64,000 bases of DNA from Eunapius fragilis. Lineage: Eukaryota > Porifera > Demospongiae > Spongillida > Spongillidae. Both the position numbers and the translations under genes were made by a program. Where the stretch lies: NCBI GenBank assembly GCA_963681505.1, contig OY811992.1:248001-312000 (forward strand). The letters are read 5' to 3'. Positions 1 through 64,000 of this stretch are shown here, piece after piece. Positions within the stretch are counted from its first letter, which is position 1. The number at the start of each line of letters is the position of its first letter. The notes beneath the pieces were generated by a model that made no database searches, was not told the DNA's origin, and was given only the letters and a program-made list of their open reading frames with translations.

Positions 1-1410
1 TACCTTCCCTCCCTATTCCCACCCTACCTTACCTCCATGTTCCCACCCCTACCTTCCCTGAGCCATGTTCCCACCCCCTACCTTCCCTCCATGTCTCCCC
101 ACCCCTACCTTCCCTCCATGTTCCCACCCCTACCTTCCCTCCATGTTCCCACCCCTACCTTCCCTCCATGTTCCCACCCTACCTTCCCTCCATGTTCCCA
201 CCCCTATCTTCGCTCCATGTTCCCACCCCTACCTTCCCTCCATGTTCCCACCCCTATCTTCCCATGTCCCACCCCTACCTTCCCTCCATGTTTCCACCCT
301 ACCTTCCCTCCATGTTCCCACCCCTACCTTCCCTCCATGTTCCCACCCCTACCTTCCCTCCATGTTCCCACCCCTACCTTCCCTCCATGTTTCCACCCTA
401 CCTTCCCTCCATGTTCCCACCCCTACCTTCCCTCCATGTTCCCACCCTACCCTCCATGTTCCCACCCCTACCTTCCCTCCCTATTCCCACCCTACCTTAC
501 CTCCATGTTCCCACCCCTACCTTCCCTCCATGTTTCCACCCTACCTTCCCTCCATGTTCCCACCCCTACCTTCCCTCCATGTTCCCACCCTACCCTCCAT
601 GTTCCCACCCCTACCTTCCCTCCCTATTCCCACCCTACCTTACCTCCATGTTCCCACCCCTACCTTCCCTGGAGCCATGTTCCCACCCCTACCTTCCCTC
701 CATGTTCCCACCCCTACCTTCCCTCCATGTTCCCACCCCTACCTTCCCTCCATGTTCCCACCCCTACCTTCCCTCCATGTTCCCACCCCTACCTTCCCTC
801 CATGTTTCCACCCTACCTTCCCTCCATGTTCCCACCCCTACCTTCCCTCCATGTTCCCACCCTACCCTCCATGTTCCCACCCCTACCTTCCCTCCCTATT
901 CCCACCCTACCTTACCTCCATGTTCCCACCCCTACCTTCCCTCCATGTTTCCACCCTACCTTCCCTCCATGTTCCCACCCCTACCTTCCCTCCATGTTCC
1001 CACCCTACCCTCCATGTTCCCACCCCTACCTTCCCTCCCTATTCCCACCCTACCTTACCTCCATGTTCCCACCCCTACCTTCCCTGGAGCCATGTTCCCA
1101 CCCCTACCTTCCCTCCATGTTCCCACCCCTACCTTCCCTCCATGTTCCCACCCCTACCTTCCCTCCATGTTCCCACCCCTACCTTCCCTCCATGTTCCCA
1201 CCCTACCTTCCCTCCATGTTCCCACCCCTATCTTCCCTCCATGTTCCCACCCCTACCTTCCCTCCATGTTCCCACCCCTATCTTCCCATGTTCCCACCCC
1301 TACCTTCCCTCCATGTTCCCACCCCTACCTTCCCTCCATATTCCCACCCCTACCTTCCCTCCATGTTCCCACCCCTACCTTCCCTCCATGTTCATGTTAC
1401 CTCCATGTTC
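1..1410. repeat. Minisatellite, about 25-bp unit, DMXL intron
   Basis: About 55 imperfect units with core CCATGTTCCCACCCCTACC. The array fills the sequenced part of a DMXL intron and runs off the left edge. Read on the gene (minus) strand each unit contains ATGGAGGGAAG/GTAGGGG, which resembles the adjacent exon end ATGGAGAAG/GTATGAAC at 1414. Higher-order blocks (a unit with TGGAGC, a short unit CCCTACCCTCC) recur at about 420 bp. It stays open in all three plus-strand frames but is not a gene. Confidence 0.95.
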
Positions 1411-4400
1411 ATACCTTCTCCATTAGTCTTCTAAGTGTGTCACTGCTCCTCACCCACCATCCTGCGCCTACATTCCTCAAGTTGTCCCAAGTCAGCTCAT
1501 CATTCTGCATGCCTGGTATGGCTGCCAACAGCTCTTTCTCTGCTTCAGAATGGAACGCCCATATAAACTCTACAGGTGTCAAAGCATTCGGGCAAACATC
1601 CTTGGGAAGGGATTGCGATAGGGTTACATAATTCTGCAAGATCAGCAGATAGCGAAATCCACAGTCGTCCATGGCCTCTCTCCCCCTACCTGAGGCTGCA
1701 TACCCTGCACCTGTTATGGATAAAATACCACCATCCCCTCCTCCATCCTCGTCAGAGGGCTCTCCACGAAAGGCATCTGCAGTGGCACCCTCCTGCACAC
1801 CAATCCCCATCTTCGTGTTGGCGACAGTCTCTGCTATCGTTAGCAGGAGGACCTGCTCAAGGTCACTTAGCCCTGGAAGCTGGGTATACTGAAGCACTGC
1901 GCTCATCTGCTGTGCCATTTCTGGAGTGAATGACGAGGTTTCGGGATTGATGTCATCAAAGGAAAGCCCCTTGGTGACTTCCTCAAACCCGTATGAAAAA
2001 TCCTGCAGCGTTGGTTCAATACCTGTAGAAAACAGCTCATCGTAGTCATTCCCTGAGCCATCAGCTTGCCCTTCTTCCTTCCCTCCCTGATGGTCTCCTT
2101 GACTCAGCAATCCCAGTTTGGACAGGGATAGTGCTGGGATGCTGTCAACACTAACCGTGACCTTCACCTTGTTACTTCTACGGACAAGCCCATCTGCAGA
2201 CACTGAGAGAAGCCTCTGTCGCTGTGACCCTTGGGTGTTCTCCTCCGGGGGAACAAAGCCCTGGAAGTCCACCGCTTCATCCTTTGGTTGAGACTTGTGC
2301 TGGTACAAGGTGAGATACTTGGACAAGTTCACCAGTATTAATTTGACAGTGGTAACCTTACCAGATGACATTAACTTCATCAAGATGGTAGGGTGGTATT
2401 GAGGTAAGGAGATGTTTCGAGCTTGTGCATAATTGAGAAGATTCATAGTGTTTTCACGTGAAACCTTAGAGCTGTCCACCCCTAGCAGCAGTGGGGGGGG
2501 GCTCTGGGCCTTGTTCCTCGAAGACTGGGGATGGCTGAACCCTTCTGCCATCATCTGTTCTAAATCACTACCTTTGGCATAGCATGAGTAGAGGTGCAGC
2601 TCATTGCCTATGCTGACCAGCAGACTGTTACTCCCTGTATACAGCAGAGCGCTGGCATACAAGCTTGGATACGACTGACAGCAGTCAAACTGCAAAATCC
2701 TGACCCAAGATGGCTTCCACACATGAGATGCCTCCGGTACCCTGGTGTTTTCATTGGTGCGCGACTTCTGCACCACCTTAAGCAGGTCATGCTCAACTAT
2801 CAAACTTTGACTAAAAATTGAGATGATGGATGAAAAGCAAGTAGCTAGCAAGTATGAACCATTCTCAATGGGTACCCATTCGAGCATAACCTTGGGGTTT
2901 TGTGATTCAACCACAAGCGTGCTTAGCCCTGTGAGCTGAAGAGTTGACTCGCACGACCACCTAAGACCACCTGAAGACTTACACTCCCAAATAGAAACAA
3001 GAGCGTGCTTATTGAGGGAAGTAGACTTGAGTATTGCACTGTTACTGGATTTGGAAGGGTGGCTCAGATGGTGGGCCATTGCAAACTGCCCAGGGTATGC
3101 AGAGGATATGGCACATGGTACAGGTGACACCAGGGCATACGATTGGAGCATGCTGTCCTCACTGCACTTCAGCGCACCACACAGCTCCTGTGGCACGTTG
3201 GCCTTAGACAGTCCCACCACCTCGTAAACTTCCAAACTTACGTCACCGCTTTTCCCAAGCAGGTCAGGGCTTGCTGAAGCATCGGCGTTTGTGCGCTGGT
3301 GAACACTGAACTGCCAGGACCTGATGGTGTTGTCCGAACAAGCAGTACTGAAAAGAAATGGTGCTGAAACACCAAACACCTGGAGCTGAAAAGAGCTCGG
3401 TATGTCTGTGGCAGGGACACAGGAGGTGGCGTGGACACCTTGGGCAAGAGGAAGAAGAACAGGAGACATTCTCTTTACCTTCACCCCTACTGGCTGGCTG
3501 GTGGGGGTGGGGTCACTCCCAGGCGCGGGATCAAATGAAATCATCCATACATGCAAAAAGGTTTGCTTTGTTTGGGATCCAGTGACTGATGACAGGGAAT
3601 GGCGATTCTCCACCAGGACTACCGCAATGCTGTCAACAAAGTCGGGACAGCTTGACTTCTGAATATTGTACGAAGTGACCAGAGATGAAAAGCGAAACAC
3701 ATGTAGAGTAAGGACCTCCTCAAAGCTCAGTATGTCACTCTCAATTGAAGCCACAATACTGATTGACTTCTTCCCAGTGTAGGTTATCCCTTCAGCTGCT
3801 TTACCACCACCACCACCACCACCACCGCTGCCATTACTCCAACCCTTTAGTCTGCTACTATTACTGGAACCCATGTCTAAAGTGGGTGTTAGCTTAGCTT
3901 TGTTTGGAGAGCCCACATTCTCAAATAGGGACACCTCGTACAGACACAGTTCAGATCCAACATTGGTTACAAAATAACCAGTGTGGTATAACTGGGGGGT
4001 GGAGCTCTGAGGGGTGGAGCTCTGAGAGGTGGAGCTCTGAGAGGTGCGTGATGACACAACAGGAGGCACCCAAGCTGTGTGCCGAAAGGACACTGAGCTG
4101 ATAGAAGACATCTTAGCAAGCTCGCTGATACTGCCATTGTGCTCTAAGGAGCCTGGTAATTCTGTGCTCCACACAATAAGCTCACTACCTACAGGGGAAA
4201 GCCCTTTTTCTCCCCCACCACACGACACAGTAAGTAACAGTGGGAGCCGAGGATGTCTCAGCATGGCCCGCACCTCAAAGCGATGTCCGCCCGTCTCCCC
4301 ACAGTGAATCAAGCCCGCTATAGAGTTGCCATGGTTTGTCTGCTGCGTCAGTTCTACTGACCAAATATTGAGGGTACCATGAAGATGTTTTGAGACTAGG

Positions 4401-7400: not shown

Positions 7401-10400
7401 GCTAATAGGGGTGTAGGGTGTGTGTGTGCTAATAGGGGTGTAGGGTGTGTGTGTGCTAATGGGGGGTGGTGGGCTGGTGTGTGTGCTAATAGGGGTGGTG
7501 GGGGTGTGTGTGCTAATAGGGGTGTAGGGGGTGTGTGTGCTAATAGGGGTGGGGTGGGAGGGTGTGTGTGCTAATAGGGTGTAGGGTGTGTGTGTGCTAA
7601 TAAGGGTGTAGGTGTGTGTGTGCTAATAGGGGGTGGTGGGCTGGTGTGTGTGCTAATAGGGGTGTAGGGTGTGTGTGTGTGCTAATAGGGGTGTAGGGTG
7701 TGTGTGTGTGCTAATAGGGTGTAGGGTGTGTGTGTGCTAATGGGAGGTGGTGGGCTGGTGTGTGTGCTAATAGGGGTGTAGGGTGTGTGTGTGCTAATAG
7801 GGGTGTAGGGTGTGTGTGTGCTAATGGGGGGTGGTGGGCTGGTGTGTGTGCTAATAGGGGTGGTGGGGGTGTGTGCTAATAGTGGTGGTGGGAGGATGTG
7901 TGTGCTAATAAGGGTGTAGGGTGTGTGTGTGCTAATAAGGGTGTAGGGTGTGTGTGTGCTAATAGGGGTGGGGTGGGAGGGTGTGTGTGCTAATAGGGGT
8001 GGGGTGGGAGGGTGTGTGTGCTAATGGGGGGGTGTGTGTGTGGTAAACATCCTATAGAGGATATGCAATGTTTAAATATTCATAGAGGTCAAAAGGTCGA
8101 CGGTGAGTGGCTGATAGAAATAGTATAGTGTCCAATACGCGCGTTTAGTTCTTCACTTTTTTTTTTCTTTTTCCATCTACGTCAACTGGACACTATCCTT
8201 TTCTATTTGAACACCCCCAAACACTGCATTGACGACGCGACATCACGAAAGCCTTTCTAACCCAACAATTTCCTATACTATTTTTATCAGCCACTCACCG
8301 TCGACCTTTTGACCTCTATGAATATTTAAACATTGCATACCTCTAATAGAGAAACCACAATCACATTGGACAACTTAATAGAGCCATTTACACTATACAG
8401 ATACAATGTACCTCACAGAAGATGGCTTTTAACTATCCAACCTAAGCCATTGTCTTTATTCATGTAACCCAATACATGTAGATGATCCACACAAGCAGAA
8501 CACTACGTGTTTATTAACCACTCGGACTTTAAACTGCTTCCCTGCACCTATATTTACAGTTACTCCTCCCCAGTCCCAAAACATCACCCCTGACCGTGGC
8601 ATCAGCACTCCAATCTTCCGCCACGAAAAGCTTGTCACAGCTCTTGGGTGTGCAATATACGAGAATGAGAAACCAGTAGTAAGTGTGCTAGTGGCTGGCA
8701 GAAGTGGTAAGGTCAGTCAGAAGGAGACGTGGGAGAAGAATGTGGAGAAGGTTAAGATGAGGAAGGAGAGGTGAGAGTAGAAAGAAAGTTGGGAAGGCGG
8801 TAACACACAAAAGAAACAGAACAATACAAACACATACCATTCAATAACTAACAATGTGAGATAATACATCACTTCATTCAATAACACAATCAACTGCAAC
8901 CTATCGACTAATTGGATAAGCCCAATCAAGCACGATATGTAACAGACCAGTACTACTTATAACAGACTGGCAATAGGCCACAATACACACACATGAACAT
9001 CAACAGTAATGAAACAGCCATACTCCAATTTCTACACAGTTCTACACACTAGTACATCAGTTCTACACACTAGTACATCAGTTCTACACACTAGTACATC
9101 AGTTCTACACACTAGTACATCAGTTCTACACACTAGTACATCAGTTCCAACAGACCACTTACATGCTGCCCGTGACCTTGCTGGGTACCAGATCTTTACC
9201 AGGGGGTCATTCTGTGAAGAACCAACATGCACACATAAACTGACAGGAGACCGTCTGAGTATACATGCACACCTAACCCATCTGATGTCACCAGCCCATG
9301 TGTGATGTCACCAGCCCACATGCGATGTCACCAGCCCATGTGTGATGTCACCAGCCCATGTGTGATGTCACCAGCCCATGTGTGATGTCACCAACCCAAG
9401 TGTGATGTCACCAGCCCATGTGTGATGTCACCAGTCCAAGTGTGATGTCACCAGCCAATGTGATGTCACCAGCCATCATCAGCCAATGTGATGTCACCAG
9501 CCCAAGTGTGATGTCACCACACTTGGGCTGGTGACATCACATGTGGGCTGGTGACATCACACATGAGCTGGGATGTTACCAGCCCATGTGTGATGTCACC
9601 AGCCCATGTGTGATGTCACCAGCCCATGTGTGATGTCACCAGCCCATGTGTGATGTCACCAGCCCATGTGTGATGTCATCAACCCCAAGTGTGATGTCAC
9701 CAGCCCATGTGTGATGTCACCAGTCCAAGTGTGATGTCACCAGCCAATGTAATGTCACCAGCCAACGTGATGTCACCAGCCCAAGTGTGATGTCACCAGC
9801 CCATGTGTGATGTCATCAGCCCATGTGTGATGTCACCAGTCCAAGTGTGATGTCACCAGCCCATGTGTGATGTCACCAGTCCAAGTGTGATGTCACCAGC
9901 CCATGTGTGATGTCACCAGCACTACTCACCTTCCCATAAGACGCAAACATGACGCCATCTGAAGAGAACTTCAAACACATCACTGGCTGTGACAGTTTAC
10001 ACCTCCAACTGTCCACCCATTTAATGGCAGGGGGCCCAGTAGTCTCGCCCCCAACACCAAAGGATGCCCCCCCACTCTCCCCACTCCACAGTACTATGCT
10101 CTCTCCACCTGTGAGCAGCTGCATACCTAATGATGGGAAGATGGTGGTGAGGACATGGGGGTGAGGGGGTGAGGGTGGTGAGGACATGAGGTGAGGGTGG
10201 TGAGGACATGGGGGTGAGGGTGGTGAGGACTTGGGGTGAGGGTGGTGAGGACATGAGGGTGAGGGTGGTGAGGACATGAGGGTGAGGGTGGTGAGGACAT
10301 GAGGGTGAGGGTGGTGAGGACATGAGGGTGAGGGTGGTGAGGACATGGGGGTGAGGGTGGTGAGGACATGAGGGTGAGGTAGTGAGGACATGGGGTGAGG

Positions 10401-12770: not shown

Positions 12771-15597
12771 ATGAAAGCTGCATTGGAAAAGAAACATCTC
12801 ACCGTAAACGAAACGGAACTGTCTCAATTATATCAGAGCAGGACGCTCTCGTTATTTCGTCGGTTTTCGTTTGGAGTCGGACATTTCTTCAATGACATGT
12901 GCGCCAGTATGTGGTTCAGCTACATGATAGTCTTCTACCATCTTGTTTTGGGCATTGACAATAGCTTGGCTGGAACACTCGTCCTTATAGGCCAAATTGC
13001 CGATGCTTGTGCAACTCCCGTTATTGGATATCTTTGTGATAATACGCGTTCTCGCTACGGAAGAAGAAAGATATGGCATTTTTCTGGAACAGTGATGGTG
13101 GCTGTTTCGTTCTTCTTTTTCTGGCATCACTGTCTTGGCTGTCAGAGTGCAACCTCTAATTTACAAATCTTGTACTTCTCATCGTTCATCGTTGTGTTCC
13201 AAGTGGGGTGGGCAGCTGTCCAGATAGCTCACCTGGCGCTCATTCCTGAGCTGGTGTCTGACGAAAACGACAGAGTGGGTCTGAACGCCATCAGGTTAGA
13301 ATATTAGCACGCAGTTTGCCTTGAGACGAGGCCTGTGGATGGAGGGAGGAGGGGGGGTAGGGGGGGGATTTTAAAAACATTCTTGCGTCTGCTTGTATTT
13401 ACTATTCGCATTTAAAGTTGCCTGACAATGTCGTCTTTCAGTACTTTTCAAATTACATCCTCTAAGTGCAGCTGTACACCTAGGTGACTTAGCAACCTTC
13501 GTAGCAGGTTGTTAGAGACTAAAGCAAATGCAAAAAGTTTCATGTAATGTGTACCGTATCCAGGTGTATAGTCTATGTGTACCGTATCCAGGTGTATAGT
13601 CTATGTGTATCGTATCCAGGTGTATAGTCTACGTATCCAGGTGTATAGTCTATGTCCCTGGTGACTTACAGAGTGCCTTTCGTATGTAGGTATGCCTTCA
13701 CAATCATCTCCAGTGTGGTGGTGTATGGAGCCATGTGGGGGCTGCTGCTGCACTTTGGTGCGCTCACTGGAGGAAGGATCAACTCCAATGATGAATGGAT
13801 ATTTTCGGTACAATGCACACAGACTATGTATTTAGGGGTGTGGCCAGAATGCAGTTAGAGTGCATCACTTGATTGTGTATTTAACCTTTCACAGGGTACT
13901 GCACTAGGAATCATTGGTACTGGACTGGTCTTCACCACGGCGTTTCACCTATTCACTTATGAACCAAGTACAACACAACAACAGAACACAGAGATGGCCA
14001 GAGGGCTGACCAGGGCATGGTATATGTGGTTCCTGTCACCTCAATTCTATCTGGTATGTATTTGGGAGTTTGATCACTGGTACCTTGTGTGAAAAAGTCC
14101 TAACCTAAATTGCGTGACCGCTAAGCTTTACAGAACTCTTATGTACCCACTTAAAACACAGCAGTGCCCAGCAAACCCCCCCCCCCCCCCCCATATAATG
14201 ATTGCTGGATATCCCCCCCCCCCCCCCCCCCCCCCCCCCATATCAGAATTCGGTTAGTGATTCACTCAGCATTTGTAATGATGCAATTATATGGGGGGGG
14301 GGGGGGGGGAGGGATTCCAGCAACATGTGCAAGACCTATGAGTACTTAGCTGTGCATGTGTTGACATCTCTCCTTTCACATCTTCCCCTTCCCCTCCTCC
14401 CCTACACCTCCAGGTCGCAATTATCTACATGACAACACGGTTGGTCGTCAACTTCTCTCAGGTTTACACACCTCTGTATGTCCTGGATACTTTGTTGCTG
14501 GACAAAGTGCGTTCTTATTAATTTGCATAGTTAAGGAGGTGTCATTTAATAATGCTGTGGACGGGGTCCTTAACCCTCAAGCTATTGAGGCAGACCCCTG
14601 GGGGGCAGGCCAATGTTGCATAATCACTGTCTCCCCCTGGGGGGCAGGCCAATGTTGCATAACCACTGTCTCCCCCTGGGGGGCAGGCCAATGTTGCATA
14701 ACCACTGTCTCCCCCTGGGGGGCAGGCCAATGTTGCATAACCACTGTCTCCCCTGGGGGGGCAGGCCAATGTTGCACAACCACTGTTTCCCGCTGGGGGG
14801 CAGGCCTATGTTGCATAACCACTGTCTCCCCCTGGGGGGCAGGCCAATGTTGCATAACCACTGTCTCCCCCTGGGGGGCAGGCCAAGTTGCATAACCACT
14901 GTCTCCCCTGGGGGGGCAGGCCAATGTTGCACAACCACTGTTTCCCCCTGGGGGGGCAGGCCAATGTTGCATAACCACTGTCTCCCCCTGGGGGGCAGGC
15001 CAATGTTGCATAATCACTGTCTCCTCCTGGGGGGCAGGCCAATGTTGCAACTGTCCCTCTGGCTACATTCATTGCAAGTTTCCTTACTACCATCGCAGTA
15101 CAACACATAAACAAGTTGATTGGAAGAAACGTAAGTGTACTATACACCCCTGTTACTATGGTGACTAGAGGAACATACCCTGTCACTATGGTGACTACCC
15201 ATCACTGTCTTTCCCAACAGATTACCTATCTGGTGGCACTTATTGTTCTGGCAGGATCTCTGTGAGTCTAAGTAGTTTCACACTTGTGTCTATTGCCACA
15301 CCCTCTCCCTCTCCTCCCCTCTCTCCTCCCCTTTCTCTCTCCTCCCTCCCCCTCTCCTCCCTCTCTCTCTCTCCTCCCCTCTCTCTCTCCTCCCTCCCCC
15401 TCTCACAGTATACTGCTTTACTATCAAAAGCCGCCAACCAGCATTGGTGAAACCTTAGGTGTGTATGAAGCCATGGTTCTGCTTGGGATTGGTGGGACAA
15501 TCCTCTATGTGACATCACTGTCAATGGTGGCTGATCTAATAGGCTTCACTGTTGTAAGGCACACTGGTGGAGTGGTCACTTCAAATCATTGCTCTCT

Positions 15598-15641
<44 letters not shown>

Positions 15642-16436
15642 GTAGCAGTGCATTTGTTTATGGAGTAATGAGTTTTGCAGACAAGCTGTGCAATGGTTTA
15701 GCTGTTCAGATAGCACAGTCACTCCACCCATGTTCTGATTCAAGGTATTATAATGATGGTGGGTTCTGATGTTTACGGTGACAGACAGTGCTTGAATGGG
15801 TTAATATGGGATGGTATTAGCAAAGGGTTAATATGGGATGGTGTCTGCTGATATCTACAAGTACCTGTAAGTACCAGTAGTTTTCATGATTTCAAATGTG
15901 ATTATTACCCACTGAGAACCAGCCATTATTTGTCACTGGAGGCATGCTGAATTTCAACACAGGCATTAAATGGACTCCATTTGTTTAGAATGTAAAGTGG
16001 GAGAGGAAGTCAGATCCTCTAGCATACACTACCTTCTCCTTGGTACCATGTGTTCCTTTACAGTCAGAACTGTGGTACCTACTACAGACAGCTCATGGTA
16101 TTTGTACCTGCTGGGGCCTCAGTAATGGCTCTCATCTCTTTGGTTATCCTTGCTCTTCTGGTGCTCATGAAGAAACACTGTCAAGGTACAGAGTGCGGGG
16201 TACAAGGTACAGAGTGCGGGGTACAAGGTACATAGCGCGGGGTACAATGTACTGTAGAGCGCAGGGTACAAAATCAAATTTGTGTTTGGGTTGCATTGGT
16301 ACGTAACAAACCACACCTTGTGTCACTGCATCTCTTATCCCCAGCACAGAACAAACCCTCAACTGTCATGGATGACCCTTCCAATGATGTGGATGAGCCT
16401 TTAATCGATGAGTCTACCCCTCTGATACAGGACTAG
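12771..16436 (+). CDS. MFSD12: MFSD12 major-facilitator transporter
   Basis: Twelve-helix MFS protein of the MFSD12 family; the vertebrate member imports cysteine into lysosomes and melanosomes and affects pigmentation. Ten exons join in frame: 12771-13294, 13690-13807, 13895-14053, 14414-14506, 15038-15130, 15221-15261, 15409-15553, 15641-15744, 16064-16185 and 16345-16436 (496 aa). Diagnostic blocks: [18 protein letters not shown] near the N terminus, [16 protein letters not shown], the loop [51 protein letters not shown] and QSLHPC. The tail has an acidic/leucine stretch ([14 protein letters not shown]), a plausible lysosomal sorting signal. ATG 12771 was chosen because it directly precedes the conserved start and follows a poly-A run. 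Exon 5 (acceptor) and exon 9 (donor) are flanked by repeated splice sites. DMXL diverges upstream; DDX49 converges downstream. Confidence 0.95.
13545..13645 (+). repeat. Short tandem repeat before MFSD12 exon 2
   Basis: About four copies, roughly 28 bp, of the motif TATCCAGGTGTATAGTCTA in MFSD12 intron 1, 45 bp upstream of the exon 2 acceptor. Units contain AG dinucleotides (CCAG, ATAG) that look acceptor-like. Confidence 0.8.
14165..14325. mobile_element. Poly-C/poly-G foldback, MITE-like, MFSD12 intron 3
   Basis: Long C runs beside CATATAATGATTGCTGGA are mirrored about 100 bp later by TGCAATTATATG followed by a G run and a reversed GGATTCCAGCAA. The inverted arrangement suggests a small non-autonomous element. 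Homopolymer lengths may be unreliable in the assembly. Confidence 0.5.
14590..15047 (+). repeat. 39-40-bp array carrying 12 copies of the MFSD12 exon 5 acceptor
   Basis: Twelve units, each with GGGGGGCAG/GCCAATGTTGCA, fill MFSD12 intron 4. The last copy is the real junction: CAG ends at 15037 and exon 5 begins GCC AAT GTT GCA ACT. In upstream copies the same four codons are usually followed by TAA, so using a decoy acceptor gives an immediate in-frame stop. Two copies read CAA instead, and one copy has lost a base. Confidence 0.93.
15604..15640 (+). repeat. (CA)n ending in the MFSD12 exon 8 acceptor
   Basis: About 18 CA dinucleotides run straight into the acceptor CACAG at 15640. There is no conventional pyrimidine tract. 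Confidence 0.9.
16181..16245 (+). repeat. 21-bp repeat of the MFSD12 exon 9 donor
   Basis: The exon end TCAAG/GTACAGAG is followed by copies of the unit with donors at 16186, 16207 and 16228 (CAAG/GTACAGAGTGCGG). The spacing is exactly 21 nt. Use of donor 2 or 3 would add 7 or 14 codons without a stop. Confidence 0.9.
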
Positions 16437-16783: not shown

Positions 16784-19700
16784 TCAAGTCGGCATTGCTG
16801 ATTTCTTCTGTCCCTGCAAGAAATGAAGATGTCCACCACTACACTCCCTCACCCACCACCTCACATACATCATCATCTCACATACACTGGCACTTACAAA
16901 CATTGCAATCCCCTCCCTCATATGACTCACTAGTCTTTTAAGCAACCTCTTCTTATGTTCATTGATCTTCCTCTTGTCACCAAAACTTGTTTCACTCAAT
17001 CTCTGCAGATAATAGTAAATGTGCTCCATTACATCCAAATGTGCCCTTTACTAAATTCAAACTTTCAAATTATCATTTCTGTACTCACCAGCTCCACTTC
17101 TTTCCTAGTGATGGTGACCAAAGTAAGTTGCTGCAGTACCTTGGCCTCATCCATTTCAAACTTTGTCATCTGTTTCCCTAAATTGCATTTGTCCGATAAA
17201 CAAACCTTAGCACTTACTTAACCCTAAAGCACTTACTTAACCTTGGCACTTAGGTACTTACTTAACCTAAGGTAATTACTTAACCCTAAGGTACTTACTT
17301 AACCCTAAGGCACTTACTTAACCCTAAGGTACTTACTTAACCCTAAGGCACTTACTTAACCCTAAGGTACTTACTTGTATGCAGCTCAATGTTCTTGATT
17401 CTCTCTACATCATGTTGTGTTACCATGGTGATAGACATTCCACCCCTTCCTGCAATAGGGACAAGTGTAATTAGATGTCTCTAAAACTTGATAACTAACC
17501 AACATACAATTAACTAGCTCATACATAATAACTAACCAGCATACGATTAACCTGCCCATAACTAACCAGCTCATTAACTAATAACTAACCTGCTCTGGCT
17601 GTACGTCCAACACGATGAATGTAGTCTTTAGAGGAGGCAGGTACATTGTAATTAATGACCACTTGCACTGAGGGAATATCCAGCCCTCTAAGGTGAGGGG
17701 AGGGGCCTGATCATGATGGGAGGGGCTAAACACACCTACCTGCTTGCTACATCAGTGGCTACTAAGATCTGTACTTGTCCTGATTTGAACTGTGCTAAAG
17801 AGGCAAGTCGTTGACCCTGTAACGAGAGAGAAGTAGTGTCAGCATGAGCTCCCTGGGACAGAAGGGAATGCAGGGGTACACAGGGGTATCCAAGCTACCT
17901 GGAACACAAGGGAATGCAGGGGTGCACAGGGGTATCCAAGCTACCTGGGACACAAGGGAATGCAGGGGTGCACAGGGGTATCCAAGCTACCTGGGACACA
18001 AGGGAATGCAGGGGTGCACAGGGGTATCCAAGCTCCCTCAACATCAAGCCACAGACATGACAGCTCCTGTGGAAGGACGCCTTAAAACCTTGTGCATGGC
18101 CATCACACAATGGCCATCACACAATGGCTGCCATACCTACAAGTGGGAGTAAATATGATGACTGTCTTCTTATCCGGGCCCTCAGTGTGCAGCTGTTCCA
18201 GTAGAGCCACCAGATAGCAGTCCTTGACCTACGGTGGGCATTATTTGAAGTTATAGTAGGAACAGAAATAGAATCATAGCCACAGGCAGGCAGTGATCAA
18301 AACAGGGGTGAGGTATGAGGGGAGATGAAGGGAAGGTGAGGTGTGAGGGGAGATGAAGGGAAGGTGAGGGTGTGAGGGGAAATGGAGGGAAGGTGAGGGT
18401 GTGAGGGGAGATGGAGGGAAGGTGAGGGTGTGAGGGAGATAAAGGAAAGGTGAGGGTGTGAGGGGAGATGGAGGGAAGGTGAGGGTGTGAGGGGAGGGGA
18501 GATGGAGGGAAGGTGAGGGTGTGGGGGAAGATGGAGGGAAGGTGAGGGTGTGAGGGAAGAGGTGGAACTGATAAAGGTGGACTAGCAAGGGTCTGTGATC
18601 TCCTGACATTACCTTTGCTGGGGTGAGAATGTATCTTTGGTCAAGCAGCTCCACAGTAACCTCACTACAAGGCATGGAGAAAAAAGCATCATAGAGCATC
18701 ATAGAGCATGTGTTATACTGCTTGTGGTTTTAACCATCCACAATAAGACCTTTTGTTCACATGAATAAATCATAACTTACTCCAATTGTGCTTCCCAATA
18801 AAAAGGTTCATTAATAGCTTTCTCTTTCAATCTAGATAGTGTATCTGTCAGAGTGGCACTAAAGAACAGAGTTTGTCTTTTGCTTGGTAAGGCTTCAAAG
18901 ATCACTTCTAAGTCATCCTCAAAACTCTTATCAAGCAACCTGTCAGCCTCATCAAGCACCTAAGATATCCAAGAGTATCCAGATTAAGGAATGTCCAAAC
19001 CCCTCAGAGTACCAAAAATACTTTCTCTCCACTCTGCAATGCAACACTACTCCACCCACCAAGCCCTACCAGGAACCGAAGTCTCTGAAATGACACAGTA
19101 TCTGTGCTCCTCAGGTGATCAGCCAGCCTTCCTGGGGTTGCTATGACAATGTGAGGATTGTTGGAAAGTTCCAAGCCTTGTTTCATCATGTCTGTTATTT
19201 GAATATGAATAAGGTCACTACAGACCAACACAGCAGTACTTCTCCCGTCCAATACAGGTGATGGGGAATACAATCATTGCAACACTTACTGTTGAGGTTA
19301 TGGTTTCCTGATTATCTCTTTAGTGGATCATTTTAAAGGTTAACCTGGTCACAGATATTGGTGTCCCCCTGGTAACAGCTATTCATGTCCTCTAGGTTAC
19401 ACTTTTGGGCCTTCATAATGCCACCTACCACCAACATTCTCGTAACATGAATATGCACATACCCACATTGGTCAACAATGGTTACTGTACATACCCACAC
19501 TGGTCACCAACGGTTACTGCACATACCCACACTGGTCACCAACGGTTACTGCACATACCCACACTGATCACCAACGGTTACTGCACATACCCACACTGGT
19601 CACCAACGGTTACTGCACATACCCACACTGGTCACCAATGGTTACTGCACATACCCACACTGGTCACTAATGGTTACTGCACATACCCACACTGGTCACC

Positions 19701-25985: not shown

Positions 25986-26116
25986 ATCTTTTGTAAATCA
26001 TTCGTATTTTAAAGAACTGCAACGTTGTTTACAGTTGGATCTTGAAATAACTTGAATTTCGGAACACGAACTGGGCACAATGACATCACGCATGCATGCA
26101 CGCACGCACGCAATCA

Positions 26117-47943: not shown

Positions 47944-50900
47944 ATGTTTGGTGCGGTGGTTGGTACAGTGGTTGTGACGTTGTTCGCGTGCACTGTGGTG
48001 TTGGGAGATGACGCGCTGAGCAAGATTACAGTCCAAATGCCACAGCCAGACACTCCTGTTAAGGTACGTGTGCCATCACTTTACTAACATAATACGAACC
48101 GGGGGGTATTGTGTATGAACGTACGCTGAATTTATATTGGACACATCCTCTGGGTCCCTCCAGTCCTGTTTATGTTCCTACGCTCCAACTTATGGTCTAT
48201 CAAGACGTTTTGTAAAATAGCTATCCTGCATTTATAAAGGGCTATGTTACTTTAGTTTGGTATCTAACGAAGGCGCATTTTAGGCCTATTTTTATGCAAT
48301 GTCCGGTGTAGATGATATCTGGTGTTTTGATGCAGCACGTAGAGGGAGGGTGTGGTGGGTCGGTACATGATGCCAGGATGTGTCCACTCTCCGTTGTAGC
48401 ACAATGATTACTGGTGCGTCGCTACGAAGCTACCCAGCACGGATAGTTACATTGGTTAGTGGGCGTAGTCAATTACAAGTTTTTCACTTTCTTAACTTTT
48501 CCTTCTCCCAATGCAGTGAAGTACGAACCTCTTGCCGACCCAAAGGTGGCGCACCACATGCTTCTCTATGGCTGCAGGAGACCTCATAAAAACAGCGGAT
48601 CTTGGTACGTCCACAACGTGTGGGTAAGAGGGTTGTGATGGCTTCTCCCCCCCCCCCCCCCTCTTTCCCCAGGCCTTGTGGAGGTAATGATATCTGCTCA
48701 GATCAGTCTCGCTTCCTCTTTGCCTGGGCCAAGGGGGCTGAAGGAATATCTATGCCTGAAGGGGTGGGGTTTTTTGTTGGCCCTTCCTCTGACCAGTATG
48801 CTGTCCTACAGATACACTATGGACAACCTCCTGGTAAACCACACCTCTGTTCTGCCTCCCCCCCTCTCCTCCCCTCTCTCCTGTCACAGTGAAGCCACAC
48901 ACACTGATTTCTCTCTTTCCCCTATCTCTAGTGGACAATTCACATGTTACAGAAGCACTGACACTTCACCTTACCACAGCAAGGTTAGTTTGTCAGTGAT
49001 TCATTTGTCCATTATCCACCTCATCCTCTTCCCCCTCCCTCCTTCCCACCTATACCTAAACATCTCCACAGGCAACCTCGTGTAGCTGGTATTTTCTTAA
49101 TTGTTGGCTCTGATTCAATACCACCAAACCAACAAGGTAACATGATATGTCCACAGCTGTTACACAGCTGGTACATAGCTACATAGCTGATAATTGCAGA
49201 CATGTTCCTCTAACCATCAGCATACACCATCAATAGTGGCTGCCGTTTCTCCGGCCCTAATTCAATACATCCATTTGCCTTCAGAACACATGCCCACTCC
49301 CTCTGTAGGTATATGTGATGTCATGTGACTGTCATGTGACGTTTGAGCATGCCACAGGCAAACAGATTGATGGCTATGTTATCAAAGATGGTCATTGGAA
49401 CCTTATTGGAAGCCGAAGTCCTCAGGACCCACAGGTCTGGGCACCCGTATGCCTATGTTCCCCTCTGACCACACTCTCTTATACAGGCATTCTACCCAGT
49501 GAAGGATAAGAGCCTGAATATCTCTGTTAATGACTGGCTGGTATGTAGAGGGAGGTGTGGTCTTATGATGAGCCCCTCCCCCTCTGGTCCCCATGCAGGC
49601 TGGTAGGTGCATATACAATAGTGTTGGTCAAAAGGACGACATCAACATGGGGTAAGGATGGGGAGGAGAGGTAAGGATGGGGAGGAGAGGTAAGGAGGGG
49701 GAGGAGGGTAAGGATGGGGAAGAGAGGTAAGGATGGGGAGGAGGGTAAGGATGGGGAAGAGAGGTAAGGATGGGGAGGAGGGTAAGGATGGGGAAGAGAG
49801 GTAAGGAGGGGGAGGAGGGTAAGGATGGGGAGGTGGTGGTATACCACATTTCAGCATACCTTTTTGTTGGTACTAAACTTGCTCACATGTGTATGTTATG
49901 TTGACCGCACCCACCAGATCCACCAGTGAAGATGAGATGTGTAACTTCTACATTATGTATGACACAGCCAACAACGGACAGCAACTCACCAACAGTGTTT
50001 GCAGTCAACCTGCCCCCAATAACATCATCTTCCCTTCTGTCGTTCCCATCACTCCTATGCCAAATATGGACATGGGGGTGGAGCACCATCATGGTAGCCA
50101 TGACAGCGCCTCTGGGGAGGATGGTGAGTATGAGTGCCCCAGGTACATTCCACCCAACATCCATTTGTGCCTTGTGGGCGGGGCAGTTCAGTCCAATATA
50201 ACTGTCCCACTATCCACTGAGGGGCTTCCCCCAATGCCTCCTCTGGACAAAGCGCTCCTCCATGGCAACACAAGTGAAGTTGCTATGGCAACAGTCTTGC
50301 CATCTACAAACCTGCCATCACCCACAGTACCCTCCCTACCCCCATGGACTGGGGACCCTAGTTCAGGTTATTACCCACTGCATCCCTCTGTTGTGTCATG
50401 TCTAATGTTGTGTGCACACACACCCACCTGTACTGTTGTGTGCACACACACCCACCTGTACTGTTGTGTGCACACACACCCACCTGTACTGTTGTGTGCA
50501 CACACACACACACACCTGTACTGTTGTGTGCACACACACACACACACACCTGTACTGTTGTGTGCACACACACACACACACACCTGTACTGTTGTGTGCA
50601 CACACACACACACACACCTGTACTGTTGTGTGCACACACACACACACCTGTACTGTTGTGTGCACACACACACCCACGTGAATAAAGCCAACTATGACCT
50701 TAGTTCAAACTTTACTGACCTCATATATAGTTATCTCGTCCCCAGGCCAAACTACTTTTAAATTTAAAGTTTCGATGTTTTGTAATAACAATATTTATTC
50801 TCGGGGGCGTTCCCATCTATAACTCCCATAGCCATTGCAGTTTTGCAGCACATGTGGACCACAATTGGAACACATGCGTGTATATAAGTCAAGCGCTTGA

Positions 50901-52343
50901 TGGTTCATGCCATACTTACAGCTAGAACAAGGCAAATATCTTTGATTCAAGATTGCCAAAAAGTATATTTATAGAATAAAGCAATATTGCATAGCAAGCA
51001 TCTATGATAGTTGTTAAACAGGCACAGCACAATGCCAGAGTGGCAATGTAGATTTTAAAGAGTTATTAACCAAAATAGTAAGTAACTTAAATTTTGAATA
51101 GCACTTCTCCACATAATATTTCATCATCTTATGGCTTATGTAACCGCTCCGTGAGTACGTTATGTAAAGCACAAGGCAATGAAAGTGGAGAAGGGCTATT
51201 CAAATAGCATAGATCAAGTTGGTGTTTACTTACTATTTTGGTTAATAACTCTTTAAAATCTACGTTGCCACTCTGGCATTGTGCTGTGCCTGTTTAACAA
51301 CTATCATAGATGCTTGTATGCAATATCGCTTTATTCTATAAATATACTTTTTGGCAATCTTGAATCAAAGATATTTGCCTTGTTCTAGCTGTAAGTATGG
51401 CATGAACCATCAAGCGCTTGACTTATATACACGCATGTGTTCCAATTGTGGTCCACATGTGCGGGTCTACGTACTACTGCAAAACTGCAATGGCTGTGGG
51501 AGTTATGGATGGGAACGCCCCCGAGAATAAATATTGTTATTACAAAACATCGAAACTTTAAATCCGCGTAATTCAAAAGTGGTTTGGCCTGGGGACGAGA
51601 TAATTGAACTATATGTACAGGTATATGAAGTCAGTAGTTGAGTAAAGTTTGAACTACATTAGAGAAGGTCATAGTTTTTTTGTTTGACTAGACATGGCTT
51701 TACCCACCTGTAATGTGTGTGTGCCGTACTATAAACTGTTCCACCATAGGTACGAATGCCCCTCCCCCCATGTGGACAGGAGGCCTCACCCCCTCTGATG
51801 CCTGGCCTTACAGTGACCAGAAGAAAGCACTGGAGGCCAAGTTTGGCCAAATCTCGGCTGTTGCAGTGGGTGCAAATGGAACGGTCTATATTCTTCATAG
51901 GGGAAAGAGAGTTTGGGATGAAAGGTATGCCCCTCCCCCCCCTCTTTAGGACCACCTTATTCATCCTGCTGTCACACCTCCAGTTCATTCTCCACCAAGT
52001 ACATGTTCAATTATATCTCTGATGGTCCCATCCCTGTCCCCACTGTGGTGGGGATTTCCCCTTCTGGAGAGGTGTTATCATCCTGGGGGGAGGGGTTCTT
52101 TTACCTCCCACACGGACTTACCATCGACCATGAAGGGAACTTCTGGATCACAGACGTTGCTATGCACCAGGTACTGTTGTGTTCTGTTGCTATGCACTAT
52201 GTACTGTTGCTATGCACCAGATTGTTGCTATGCACCCAGTACTCCATATTCACACATGTCCATACATTAACACTTTGACCACACACAACACACACACACA
52301 CACGCACGCACACACACACACACAAACACGCACGCACACGCGT

Positions 52344-58215: not shown

Positions 58216-61200
58216 TCACGAATATTTGTTTAGGTACTTCTTTTCTGCGGTGCGAATTGAAGATATAGCAGCCATGAGCTTCAGTTCAGGCTGATAGAGA
58301 GAGGAAGGAACAAGTCGTAGATTGCCATGACAACTTCACGTCGCCCCCCCTCCCATACCCGCCCCACATACATGCTTCTTTGCAGCATCTTCCAATGGCT
58401 TCTCATAGGTGACACACAAGTGATAGACAGCAGCAAGGTCTCGAGAACCATCTGATTGTAACTCTACATGAGTCACATCTGACCCTTCCTAAAAGACCGA
58501 GTGGGTTACCTCATTGTACAAAACATTGTGAAACAGTGATGCTACCTCAAAGAAACAGATCCAGTATGGTACTTCTTACCATCACATTCCCTCCTCACCC
58601 ACCATCACATTCCCTCCTCACCCACCATCACATTCCCTCCTCACCCACCATCACATTCCCTCCTCACCCACCATCACATTCCCTCCTCACCCACCCACAT
58701 TCCCTCCTCACCCACCATCACATTCCCTCCTCACCCACCATCACATTCCCTCCTCACCCACCATCACATTCCCTCCTCACCCACCATCACATTCCCTCCT
58801 CACATACCCCCCATATTCCCTTACCTTCACACTAGATAGGTCGTTTACAAACTGCTTCATCTTTATAAGGTTCTTCTGTATGAAAGGGTTTAGCACTGTC
58901 ATGAAAGGTTCTTTGGCTTTGAACTCCACCAGGTTTGCAAGATTCTGCATCCCCTTGGCGATGAGTTTGAGTGTTCGCTCAGCATTGGGTGATGGGGGTG
59001 CTATAAATAGAAATACAATTGGGGGTGGTGGTGGGTGGGGATGGTGATGGTGGTGATGGCAGTACTACATTTAGATACTTCATACGTCACATGACCATTG
59101 TCACATGTCACATAACCACTATGCATATATCATGTGACCCACCCCTCTCATCACGTACCAGTCACAAGGTTGAAGATCTGAGGCTTCAACATCGCTGGAC
59201 AGATGAATCTCAGGAATAGGAAGCCACTGAAAGGATCACAGTGGTTATTAACTGTGTTCACCAAGGATCACAGTGGTTATTAACTGTGTTCACCAAGGAT
59301 CACAGTGGTTATTAACTGTGTTCACCAAGGATCACAGTGGTTATTAACTGTGTTCACCAAGGATCACAGTGGTTATTAACTGTGTTCACCAAGGATCACA
59401 GTGGTTATTAACTGTGTTCACCAAGGATCAGTGGTTATTAACTGTGTTCACCAAGGATCACAGTGGTTATTAACTGTGTTCACCAAGGATCAGTGGTTAT
59501 TAACTGAGCACATACACCAGTGATGCTGGTACAGATCAACCTAACCTTAACCCAATCAATTAACCCCACACAGCCCCACCCCCAACCCCACACAGCCCCA
59601 CCCCCAACCCCACACAGCCCCACCCCCATACCTAACAGCTCTTGTTCTCACTGTACCATCTGTTGGCCATTTCTTCACTACTTCTTCCTGCAAGTGTTTG
59701 AACACCTGCCGCAAAGCCCTGAAGGCGTGTAGTGTTTGAATGAATACACACACCTGTGTGCTCTCCCACAATGATACCTGATGCATGCATGTACACAATC
59801 CCCTCCCCTCCCCTCCCCCTCCCCTCCCACTTACATAGGACACAGGGTTGCTGAGGAGTATATGGCATTAAGAATGTTGGCTAGGTGTGTTTGGAGCCTT
59901 TCAGAGTTTTGCATCAAATCGGTTCCCTTGGGAAGGTTGCTAGGGTTAAGCTGTACATGTGTATGTGCAAAGGAGGAGAAATACACCTTATTAATGCCCA
60001 CCCTGATATGCTCAAAAAGTAGCACGACCACCCCCCCTAGCATACCTCACACACATCCTGTGACTGTACTATGTGCTCAATGGGAACCTTGAGGATAGAG
60101 TGAAGGTAGTCTATACCTGTCAGCTTCATGAACTGGTCCATCAACATAGTGGGAAGAGTACTTGCCCGAAACAGTGTAGAAATATCTGCATAGTAATGAC
60201 ATTTGTCTGAATTCAAGAACCAATTGAATTACACCAATATCAAGATAATCTGGTTATTGGTTAGTTAATTAAACACCTTCAACCTTTGGTACCATCCACC
60301 CCATCATGGGATACCTTCAGACTCCACAGCCTTGCCCAGGCATGCTGCGAGGATGGGGATGACCCTGTCATTACGACAGAAGATGTGGATAAGTGTTGAA
60401 GCCAGCTCAGCGTGGTGGTCTTTGCACACTTGGGCCAATGTTTCAATGGCAGTAAGGTTATCAGATAGCAGCAGCTAAGAGAAGGCATAATGACAATGTG
60501 TCATTTTATCCCATGCAACCATATTGACTGGCTTCCTACCTCTTTCAACTGCTTGTATTCCTCATATGGAAGAATGACTTCATGCTAGGAGCGTGTGTGT
60601 GTGTGCATGTGTGTGTGTGTATGTGTGTGTATGTATGTGTGTGTGTATGTGTATGTGTGTGTGTGTGTGTGTGGTTGTAATTTTTTATAACCCATAAAAG
60701 AACAGGTTGCAATAATGAATATGCTAACCTTAAATCTGGCAGCCAATCGTATTGAGCCCCGGGATACTTTGGTGGTTCCAACAAGCAGCTGATGCCATTG
60801 GTCGTCTTGCTGCCCATTGGGTAGGTCTGTAAGGTGGACTGTCACCCGACCTAGGATCGAAAATAAGAGAAATATGACCACTGGACCACCACCTAATCCC
60901 TCCACTGGCCCACTACCTAATCCCTCCACTGGCCCACCACCTAATCCCTCCACTGGCCCACCACCTAATCCCTCCACTGGCCTACCACCTAATCCCTCCA
61001 CTGGCCTACCACCTAATCCCTCCACTGGCCCACCACCTAATCCCTCCACTGGCCCACCACCTAATCCCTCCACTGGCCCACCACCTAATCCCTCCACTGG
61101 CCCACCACCTAATCCATCCACTGGCCCACCACCTAATCCCTCCACTGGCCTACCACCTAATCCCTCCACTGGCCCACCACCTAATCCCTCCACTGGCCCA

Positions 61201-62262
61201 CCACCTAATCCCTCCACTGGCCTACCACCTAATCCCTCCACTGGCCCACCACCTAATCCCTCCACTGGCCCACCACCTAATCCCTCCACTGGCCCACCAC
61301 CTAATCCCTCCACTGGCCCGCCACCTAATCCATCCACTGGCCCACCACCTAATCCCTCCACTGGCCCACCACCTAATCCCTCCACTGGCCCACCACCTAA
61401 TCCCTCCACTGGCCCACCACCTAATCCCTCCACTGGCCCACCACCTAATCCCTCCACTGGCCCACCACCTAATCCCTCCACTGGCCCACCACCTAATCCC
61501 TCCACTGGCCCACCACCATTCCTTACCCAGTGGGGTGTCCTTCAAGAGAGTGAATCGTTTTCCTTTGGAGGATGCCTCCACTTCCACACTGAATGTTTCT
61601 GCATAAGGAGGGAGGGCTCTGAAGAGAGGAGGAGAGGGGGAGGGGGGGAGGGGGGAGGGGGAGAGAGGAGAGGAGAGGAAGGACGTATTTGTCACCTCCT
61701 AATACCATTTCATATGCAAATCACATGACAATGTTACATACCATCCCTTACATCACATGACAATGTCACACCACTTACTCAAACTGATAGCTTTCATCAA
61801 AGACGCAGGGAGTGTCTTGTTCCACCTTGGTCCTGGCCACACACACACCATCAATGCTCACCAGACAACACACATTGGAGGCAGGCTTGGCTAGCTTGCA
61901 GTCCTGTATGGACAGGGCAAGAGACCTTATCTGCTGGACCTCAGCACAGCCGGTCGGAAACACATCATCTGCACCCATACACTTCCTCAGTGTCTGCAGC
62001 CAAGACTGGGGAGGAGGGAAACAAGGTTATGACAATGTATGTGTGTACACACACATGATCAAACCACATTTAGTGTTCTGAAGACTAAAAACTAAAACTA
62101 CCAACTATTCGTTCTAATAAGCCCCATCTTTCTTACCCATCATGCTGTAAACACACACAAATGACATTAGTCCTTACCTCGGCAGCAGTAGCAGTTTCAG
62201 CACACATGTAGTGCAAGTACTGCTCATTGAGGTAATGTAGTCTGAGCACAAAGCAATCATTC

Positions 62263-62309: not shown

Positions 62310-64000
62310 TATTATCTTTTCCCATGATATCGGGAAACACCATACCTTCCATACAGACTAGGGTGAGCCATGTATACTTTGCACTGCTTCAAATCCAGCA
62401 ATCCTTTAGCTCTGTGGCTCTATAGAGGCATGTGCGAACACTTCCATGAGATCCCAAACACACATGATCATACACCCAATAACACCATGACACCCAATAA
62501 CACCATGACACCCAATAACACCATGACACCCAATAACACCATGACACCCAATAACACCATGACACCCAATAACACCATGACACCCAATAACACCATGACA
62601 CCCAATAACACCATGACACCCAATAACGCCATGACACCCAATAACACCATGGCACCCTGAACACCCATGACACCCAATAACACCATGACTCTCTACAACA
62701 CAATTAACACCCATGACACCATACAAATGTGGCAGGAGGGCTGAGTAACCCATCACTGCCACACCCCAAAGAGGCACATGAGGGGGTGGGGCTAGACTCC
62801 ATTCTCACATTCTCATGTTCATAGAAGAGTAATTTATGTTCATCAAATTTCAGCACAAAGTAGAAACCCTTCCATTGTCCAGGCACAGGGTACTTCTTTC
62901 CTGTTAGGGGAAGGAAGAACACACCCACTAACACAATGTACACACACCCACTAGCACATATGAACAAATTAATTTGGGGAGGTATGTTAAAATTAGCATC
63001 GCCACTAACACCTAGAAGCATTGTAGTTATTAAAACACAACAAAGCAGTTATCAGAACATGACAGCAGAGCTCTGACATACCTTTCTTAAGAAGAAGCAA
63101 TCCTGTCTTGTCTCCTGTAGAACTGGTTTGCACATGAGACTGGTTCTTGTTGACATCTGGTTGCCGTGGTAGCAATGGAGAAGCTTTTGGAAGAGACCTC
63201 TTGAAGTGAAAAGATATGAGAAAGAGTTAGCGGTACCATTGATCACTAAAAACATACATGTTTGTCGAAGTAAGGGACAGGTTCATCCAGCTTCAACCCT
63301 TCAAGGATGTCTTCCTTACGGTATCTTGATATGACATCATCAAGGCTGGAAGAGATGGGTATCACACCCTGCTACAGGTACACACCACAAGGCTGGAGCC
63401 CCTCCCACATGTCATCTAGCCCCTCCCACATGTCATCTAGCCCCTCCCACATGTCATCAAGCCCCTCCCTCTGCTGGAATATATCATTCTGACTTGCCAG
63501 TTAAACTGCCTTCCTCCAAAGAGGAAGTACCCGCTAACATCTTTCTGGATCAGAAATCTTTGCACTTTGTCCGGTGTTCTGGTCATGAGGGTGGGGTGAC
63601 ATAAGTCTATCGTAATTTGACATGCACATCTGAACATCTACATGTGTCATGTGCCAATCACCTGAACATCAACATGTGTCATGTGCCAATCACCTGAACA
63701 TCAACATGTGTCATGTGCCAATCACCTGAACATCAACATGTGTCATGTGCCAATCACCTGAACATCAACATGTGTCATGTGCCAATCACCTGAACATCAA
63801 CGTGTGTCATGTGCCAATCACCTGAACATCAACGTGTGTCATGTGCCAATCACCTGAACATCAACGTGTGTCATGTGCCAATCACCTGAACATCAACATG
63901 CGTCATGTGCCAATCACCTGAACATCAACGTGTGTCATGTGCCAATCACCTGAACATCAACGTGTGTCATGTGCCAATCACCTGAACATCAACGTGTGTC
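58216..64000 (-). CDS. RASA1: RASA1-type Ras GTPase-activating protein, 3' part, partial at right edge
   Basis: p120RasGAP-like: SH2-PH-C2-RasGAP order. The earliest exon in the window (63629-63494) is the end of an SH2 domain (DKVQRFLIQKD, YFLFGGRQFN), continued by SLDDVISRYRKEDILEGLKL at about 63371-63264. The linker TGDKTGLLLLKKG leads to a PH domain (KKYPVPGQWKGFYFVLKFDE, about 62900), then a C2 domain (61980-61550; ALSIQDCKLAKPASNV, PCVFDESYQFE). The GAP domain spans about 60860-58830. The arginine finger is present in STLFRASTLPTMLMDQFMK (about 60180) and the signature in FLFLRFICPAMLKPQIFNL (from 59226), then NLANLVEFKAKEPFM. The C terminus is AAISSIRTAEKKYLNKYS, TGA at 58216. It accelerates GTP hydrolysis on Ras after recruitment by SH2 to phosphotyrosine. 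The N-terminal SH2/SH3 part is outside the window. Confidence 0.93.
58575..58810. repeat. 20-bp minisatellite beside a RASA1 donor
   Basis: About 12 units of CACCATCACATTCCCTCCTC. On the gene strand the intron starts GTGTGAAG/GTAAGGGAATATGG, and each unit contains GGTGAGGAGGGAATGTGATG, donor-like and similar to that intron start. Confidence 0.92.
59226..59512 (-). repeat. 32-bp array formed from the 3' end of a RASA1 intron
   Basis: About nine units with AAGGATCACAGTGGTTATTA. On the gene strand the array reads AACCACTGTGATCCTT and its last copy becomes AACCACTGTGATCCTTTCAG, the acceptor of the catalytic FLRFICPA exon. Confidence 0.9.
60595..60672. repeat. (GT)n, RASA1 intron
   Basis: GT-rich microsatellite. 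On the gene strand a CA tract leads into an acceptor GCTCCTAG a few bases away. Confidence 0.93.
60880..61516. repeat. 24-bp minisatellite, RASA1 intron
   Basis: About 26 highly uniform units of CCACTGGCCCACCACCTAAT plus CCCT, with rare CCTACC or CATCC variants. It is a multiple of 3 and stop-free on both strands, giving false 300-codon frames. Confidence 0.97.
62263..62307. repeat. (CA)n, RASA1 intron
   Basis: About 22 CA dinucleotides. Confidence 0.95.
62470..62695. repeat. 18-bp minisatellite, RASA1 intron
   Basis: About 12 units of ACACCCAATAACACCATG, flanking the PH-domain exon. Confidence 0.95.
63630..64000 (-). repeat. 32-bp array carrying copies of a RASA1 SH2-exon acceptor
   Basis: At least 11 units (core CATGTGCCAATCACCTGAAC), running off the right edge. 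On the gene strand the real acceptor is GTAGATGTTCAG/ATG (63630), and each unit contains GTTGATGTTCAG/GTG, nearly the same acceptor. Confidence 0.92.

Follow-up and report, generated by a model that had tools for sequence, protein, structure and literature searches.

Genes, introns and minisatellite arrays of the window

The stretch of DNA analysed here is a 64,000-nt window of the Eunapius fragilis genome (positions 248001-312000 of a contig of 5.5 Mb; the assembly has 219 Mb in 24 contigs), in which many introns contain minisatellite arrays and some of these arrays are built from copies of the intron's own splice site. The window has a GC content of 42-53% and holds DMXL, MFSD12, DDX49, a WD40 gene, MEF2, PINCH, PAM, Tam41, a Gfo/Idh/MocA oxidoreductase and RASA1, together with two further genes, one near 23-24 kb and an unnamed one near 46 kb. 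Pfam or PDB matches, combined with naming by the present authors or by a first-pass annotation of the same DNA, support DMXL (Rav1p_C), DDX49, MFSD12, MEF2, PINCH (LIM), PAM, Tam41, the oxidoreductase and RASA1. The label 'WD40 gene' was taken from the first-pass annotation. The gene near 23-24 kb appeared C2-like by eye, and the one fragment of it that was tested had no Pfam match.

Ab initio gene models contained too many exons and merged separate genes, and were replaced by hand curation. In total, 69 introns were curated from the sequence, with the GT/GC-AG splice signals checked; their length quartiles are 83, 152 and 395 nt. Frame checks and Pfam searches gave open frames for DDX49 (428 amino acids, with DEAD and Helicase_C), RASA1 (653 amino acids, with PH, C2 and RasGAP) and MFSD12 (402 amino acids). 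The PAM pieces and the second PINCH piece likewise have an open frame and a Pfam match, and the start of MEF2 also matches. Translation of the first PINCH piece met five stops, and the DMXL frame was not open at one junction, where the donor was set at 9162. The introns of the WD40 gene and of the genes near 23-24 and 46 kb were obtained by reading the sequence by eye together with ab initio prediction.

Several intron placements were revised. A 21-nt RASA1 intron (58509-58489) was implausible, and the intron at 58824 was lengthened to 58489; candidate introns at PINCH 43328 and WD40 31561 were mis-set and were discarded. The DMXL donor was taken as 9162 in the repeat-density, coverage, strict and donor-acceptor counts and as 9176 in the decoy and random-birth counts. 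One PINCH intron entered the repeat-density count with its acceptor at 43366, later placed at 43367. The RASA1 intron at 63497 (minus strand) has a GC donor (CTG/GCAAGT) and fits the reading frame.

Arrays were identified with Tandem Repeats Finder (TRF; score of at least 50, period of at least 9), and overlapping arrays were merged. Arrays with a period below 9, those more than half covered by repeats of period 6 or less, and dinucleotide-rich ones were excluded. A CA-rich MEF2 array (34614-34927) passed this microsatellite filter and was kept in the counts. The filter dropped a RASA1 array (59562-59628), which is therefore absent from the counts based on 40 arrays. The 49 merged arrays cover 17,184 of the 64,000 bases. 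They account for 56% of the DNA in introns (13,865 of 24,916 bases, counting the DMXL stretch 1-1414) and for 15% of that between genes (1,959 of 12,800 bases), and 33 of the 69 introns hold an array.

The first-pass annotation had stated that the units differ from array to array, and this was borne out: only 26 of 1,176 unit pairs scored at least 0.7, compared with 12 among shuffled pairs. A single spreading repeat family was rejected, as few pairs were alike and most of the eight best pairs listed were CA-rich or C/G-rich. One of these eight pairs comprises the units at 62472-62722 and 62919-62966, in neighbouring RASA1 introns, which are alike (normalised score 0.86) and may share one origin.

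Splice sites copied into the arrays

Copying of splice sites was assessed by local alignment of each junction (donor -24/+18, acceptor -18/+24) to the remainder of its own intron. A junction passed this strict test if the alignment ran across the splice site with a score of at least 28 and p of at most 0.03, the null scores coming from alignment of the remaining junctions to that intron. The test was passed by eight of 70 donors and two of 69 acceptors. The seventieth donor, DMXL 1414, was counted in the strict test only, because its intron runs past the window edge. The ten junctions belong to ten different introns, about one intron in seven (10/70), and no intron passed at both ends (eight at the donor only, two at the acceptor only). 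They are listed here with the strict score and the highest null score.

19454-19852, minus strand: DDX49 intron 3, 12.5 copies of 32 nt; first unit across donor 19846, 6 exon nt inside; 12 further copies of the donor 14-mer (56; null 21)
17847-18038, minus strand: DDX49 intron 8, 4.2 copies of 46 nt; donor 17990, 48 exon nt inside; unit nearly all copied exon 3' end (84; null 20)
16182-16252, plus strand: MFSD12 last intron, 3.4 copies of 21 nt across donor 16186, 4 exon nt (44; null 18)
14595-15049, plus strand: MFSD12 acceptor array (intron end 15037), 11.7 copies of 39 nt; unit of acceptor and exon start, 12 exon nt inside; acceptor 14-mer in 11 copies (57; null 15)
32065-32115, minus strand: WD40 gene, two 25-nt copies across donor 32108, 7 exon nt (40; null 24)
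29760-29885, minus strand: WD40 gene, acceptor 29789 with the start of its exon present twice, 78 nt apart (78; null 19)
34482-34542, plus strand: MEF2, two 29-nt copies across donor 34499, 17 exon nt (59; null 20)
52154-52236, plus strand: PAM, about three copies, each with the exon end and donor 52171 (38; null 15)
59562-59640, minus strand: RASA1, 22-nt G-rich array with a copy of donor 59631 (32; null 20)
1-1425, minus strand: DMXL, 25-nt unit (TRF 1-1393), degenerate copies extending to and including donor 1414; the weakest pass (29; null 26)

The units at these junctions are about 20-80 nt long. The simplest cases are duplications with two copies (MEF2, WD40 32108), and the largest have about a dozen copies that retain the splice site (DDX49 19846, MFSD12 15037). 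Copy spacings of 32, 46, 25 and 29 nt are not multiples of three, so later donors at those junctions would shift the frame. The first, outermost donors yield open frames in DDX49, RASA1, MFSD12 and PAM.

Fifteen junction arrays had been named in the first-pass annotation, and eight of them withstood the strict test: the donors at DDX49 19846 and 17990, PAM 52171, MFSD12 16186, MEF2 34499 and, weakly, DMXL 1414, and the acceptors at MFSD12 15037 and WD40 29787 (intron end 29789 in the present model). WD40 32108 and RASA1 59631 had not been named. The remaining seven are found among the following arrays, which lie at or beside junctions without a significant copy.

17212-17376, minus strand: DDX49 intron 11, 19-nt unit, flush with donor 17374, 2 exon nt
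49651-49833, plus strand: PAM, 9.6 copies of 19 nt, G-rich, flush with donor 49652, 1 exon nt
17492-17581, minus strand: DDX49 intron 10, degenerate, beginning at +8 from donor 17589
42222-42571, minus strand: PINCH, C-rich, beginning at +2 from donor 42573; donor uncopied
41100-41195, minus strand: PINCH, 23-nt unit, beginning 2 nt from donor 41197; donor uncopied
58578-58803, minus strand: RASA1, 23-nt G-rich unit, beginning at +21 from donor 58824
59231-59506, minus strand: RASA1, 32-nt unit, ending 4 nt short of acceptor 59227; acceptor uncopied
61720-61778, minus strand: RASA1, two degenerate 32-nt copies, the first at exactly donor 61778
9283-9920, minus strand: DMXL, 20-nt unit, beginning 9 nt from donor 9929
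63630-64000, minus strand: RASA1, 32-nt unit, with a previously claimed but unconfirmed acceptor copy

At DDX49 17374, PAM 49652 and DDX49 17589 an array does sit at or near the donor, with few or no exon bases copied; the donor 14-mer copies at DDX49 17589 carry one to four mismatches. Arrays also adjoin the PINCH donor given as 42575 (here 42573), the RASA1 donor given as 58830 (here 58824) and the RASA1 acceptor 59227, with no significant copy at any of the three. Nine loose copies of the RASA1 58824 donor, with up to four mismatches, were present. The acceptor copy at RASA1 63630 was not confirmed: the array edge lies 50 nt upstream of the modelled exon start (63579), and the window does not include the preceding exon. 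Further arrays that the first-pass annotation did not list start no more than 10 nt from the donors RASA1 61778 and 61526, DMXL 9929, DDX49 18136, PINCH 41197 and WD40 29687. A 29-nt array at 25224-25993 (minus strand), upstream of the gene near 23-24 kb, has a unit with a donor-like GAG/GTAAGCC and a CAG; no curated junction could be assigned to it.

Where the units arise

The position of repeats relative to junctions was measured as the share of 24-mers that recur within 400 bp. On the donor side this share was 0-1% in the exon 24-48 nt upstream, 5/69 at the donor, 13/69 at +12 and 21/51 at +60; on the acceptor side it was 2/69 at the acceptor and 18/53 at -60. Across the 69 introns there was no peak at either junction, only a gradient from the exon to the intron interior. 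Spanning copies were found at 7 of 69 real donors and 2 of 69 real acceptors, compared with 81 of 211 decoy GTs and 72 of 172 decoy AGs within introns, 1 of 292 GTs in exons and 1 of 288 intergenic GTs (the array-rich stretch 36.7-38.8 kb left out). Real donors are thus far above the exon background and far below the intron interior.

The counts were also compared with a random-birth model, in which one unit is placed at random in the collapsed intron, donor-spanning placements are harmless and a zone of 0, 20, 30 or 40 nt next to the acceptor is barred to births. Donor-spanning arrays numbered 6 of 40 by the strict test, where 5.9, 8.1, 10.1 and 12.3 were expected for the four settings. With the RASA1 59631 array restored, the count was 7 of 41 against 6.1-12.6 expected. 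By a coarser count based on TRF edges, 8 of 40 arrays reached or crossed a donor (6.6-12.6 expected) and one crossed an acceptor; five of the eight included 4 or more exon nt. An acceptor-spanning count of two or fewer had a P of 0.042 under the unbarred model.

The most probable explanation for these observations is that units are born locally and more or less at random in genes with short introns, are purged from exons and pass through a splicing filter, which would leave arrays extending up to the functional intron ends. Minisatellite birth and growth inside such genes would have to be very frequent. A unit, typically of 20-45 nt, would be duplicated in situ and would then, we infer, expand by unequal exchange, replication slippage or gene conversion. 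Arrays would be purged from exons and freely tolerated in intron interiors. It is proposed that a unit straddling the donor can persist, since splicing from the first, upstream donor continues to yield the correct mRNA, and that a unit straddling the acceptor is mostly purged, since it would alter the mRNA by adding AGs and displacing the branch point or polypyrimidine tract. Introns would in this way fill with arrays as far as their functional ends, and a minority of the arrays would contain copies of the exon edge and splice site. The asymmetry of eight donors to two acceptors fits such a filter.

A number of observations weigh against this explanation. Array edges are concentrated near donors: 16 of 40 lie no more than 10 nt away, where 4.8, 8.5, 10.8 and 12.0 are expected with 0, 20, 30 and 40 nt barred (P 9e-7, 4e-4, 0.006 and 0.026), and the excess persists when the dropped RASA1 array is included (17 of 41, P 1.4e-7 to 0.008). 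Donor-spanning births per start position are 2.4 times as frequent as interior ones (0.0067 against 0.0028, the latter from 33 interior arrays; P 0.028). Random birth with purging leaves the excess of array DNA in introns over intergenic stretches (56% against 15%) unaccounted for. Taken alone, the difference between donors (8/70) and acceptors (2/69) in the strict test is not significant (binomial P 0.11). Some copy spacings are divisible by three (MFSD12 21 and 39 nt, PAM 30 nt, WD40 78 nt), and at these the reading frame does not rule out coding use of the copies. All of the results come from one 64-kb window of one assembly.

The edge excess, the raised donor rate and the surplus of array DNA in introns are what would be expected if mutation were directed at junctions, with 5' splice sites acting as hot spots of tandem duplication through, for example, transcription-coupled R-loops, G-quadruplexes on a sense strand that is G-rich immediately past the donor, or break repair. 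The sense strand also has a G skew averaging +0.36 in donor-adjacent arrays (n=19) and -0.15 in acceptor-adjacent ones (n=9; P 0.03). However, intron starts and ends as a whole are skewed in the same way (+0.30 and -0.20; array bases form part of this background), and skew did not correlate overall with position (Spearman P 0.38). The skew of the arrays was rejected as proof of R-loops, for which it is weak, and the pattern is compatible with local origin. Repeat density without a junction peak, spanning copies almost four times as frequent at intronic decoy GTs as at real donors, and a donor-spanning count no greater than random birth predicts also make direction to junctions unlikely.

Junction-specific seeding is therefore not established: three tests say no and two say perhaps. 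The two are read here as following mostly from short introns, in which the free space adjoins the donor, although this does not account for them completely. No corresponding excess was seen at acceptors, where 3 of 40 arrays had an edge and spanning births per start position were 0.0017. Among introns with a collapsed length of at least 300 nt, none of nine array cases had an edge within 10 nt of the donor; this decides nothing, because only 0.16 were expected. The first-pass annotation had proposed a local process that amplifies exon-intron junctions. The local part of this proposal stands, ten units carrying their own intron's splice site, whereas the seeding at junctions does not follow from the present counts. 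What deserves a genome-wide test is the surplus of array edges beside donors.

Intron gain by tandem duplication, in which a duplicated exon piece containing AGGT becomes a new intron and units hold both splice sites, is a still less probable source of these arrays. The DDX49 17990 unit is nearly all exon, as such a process could produce, and models of this type were proposed in the amphioxus globin and potato RdRp papers, as far as their excerpts go; against it, no intron had a spanning copy at both ends. An artefact, arising from mis-modelled junctions or from collapse of the long-read assembly, is the least credible of the alternatives. Copy numbers may be wrong, and the models for the first PINCH piece, the WD40 gene and the genes near 23-24 and 46 kb were made by eye. 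However, the frames are open across the DDX49, RASA1, MFSD12 and PAM junctions and match Pfam families, and the array copies are imperfect.

Relation to known systems, and further repeats

The first-pass annotation knew of no described system of this kind. That statement is refuted by two: on the parts of the literature consulted, the phenomenon is of the same kind as amphioxus 'mirages' and chicken 'exon stuttering', and has thus been described at least twice. According to the excerpts of PMC3087553 and PMC3902484, mirages are minisatellite-like tandem duplications over exon-intron boundaries, at the donor or the acceptor. They occur in Adh3, the globins BflGb6 and BflGb9, PGBD5, troponin C and other loci, the PGBD5 case being described and troponin C cited in PMC3902484. 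Their units are about 10-160 nt in the quoted cases, many copies retain AG/GT, and they reportedly leave normal splicing undisturbed. The present arrays resemble them in having a unit across the boundary (8/70 donors, 2/69 acceptors) and in a unit length of about 20-80 nt, within the published 10-160 nt. Normal splicing is reported for mirages; here the outermost sites give open frames in DDX49, RASA1, MFSD12 and PAM. Allelic or somatic length instability is a feature of the mirages described in those excerpts, while here the sequence is that of one assembly. Unlike mirages as described there, the arrays of this window also fill introns without reaching the junctions. Mirages were described in cephalochordates, and the window belongs to another assembly.

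'Sequence stuttering' or 'exon stuttering' was reported for chicken dot chromosomes and termed novel (PMC12954441, February 2026). That paper gives exon-edge copies with donor or acceptor in 236 introns of 115 genes, 190 of these introns being among the 5,572 on dot chromosomes, with copied exon parts of 20-187 bp (median 36), and refers to unshown data on GC-rich genes of the gerbil. As in the chicken, on that account, introns are filled with arrays (56% of their DNA), exons are intact (spanning copies at 1 of 292 exon decoys) and a minority of arrays copy the exon edge with donor or acceptor. Stuttering is tied there to GC-rich dot microchromosomes; the present window has a GC content of 42-53% and lies on a 5.5 Mb contig. 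Length varies between individuals in the chicken excerpts; here there is one assembly, with a median intron of 152 nt. The share of introns with spanning copies is higher here (10/70, in one window) than that quoted for chicken, but by a different test. The words 'mirage', 'lancelet' and 'minisatellite' are absent from PMC12954441.

Intron gain by tandem duplication, as proposed for ATP2A1 and potato RdRp, involves a local duplication that reuses splice signals at the exon-intron boundary (PMC4974935, in excerpt). Reuse of boundary splice signals by local duplication is also seen here. Unlike those cases as excerpted, the duplications in the window are one-sided and repeatedly expanded, and the introns need not be new. 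No further lineage with such arrays was found among literature titles and abstract openings, a coverage from which subscription journals were mostly missing.

If the pattern holds genome-wide, in an animal that is neither a lancelet nor a bird, it would add one more lineage to those whose intron minisatellites span junctions, and would link the literatures on amphioxus mirages and chicken stuttering. A 219-Mb genome with short introns would be convenient for asking where units arise, whether splicing filters donors and acceptors differently and whether copies become new splice sites. It is conceivable, if doubtful, that in this lineage minisatellites are actually born at donor sites, duplication beginning at the 5' end of the intron by a process linked to transcription or splicing that pins array edges beyond what tolerance would give, and that the same process underlies mirages and avian stuttering.

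Three other repeats were noted within genes of the window. By eye, a long inverted repeat at 50770-51560, within an intron of PAM, resembles a palindromic transposable element, and a short inverted repeat pair at 8080-8400 in a DMXL intron, beside the 27-nt array there, is possibly a small terminal-inverted-repeat element. A 15-nt tandem repeat lies at 3998-4046, within the large DMXL coding exon.

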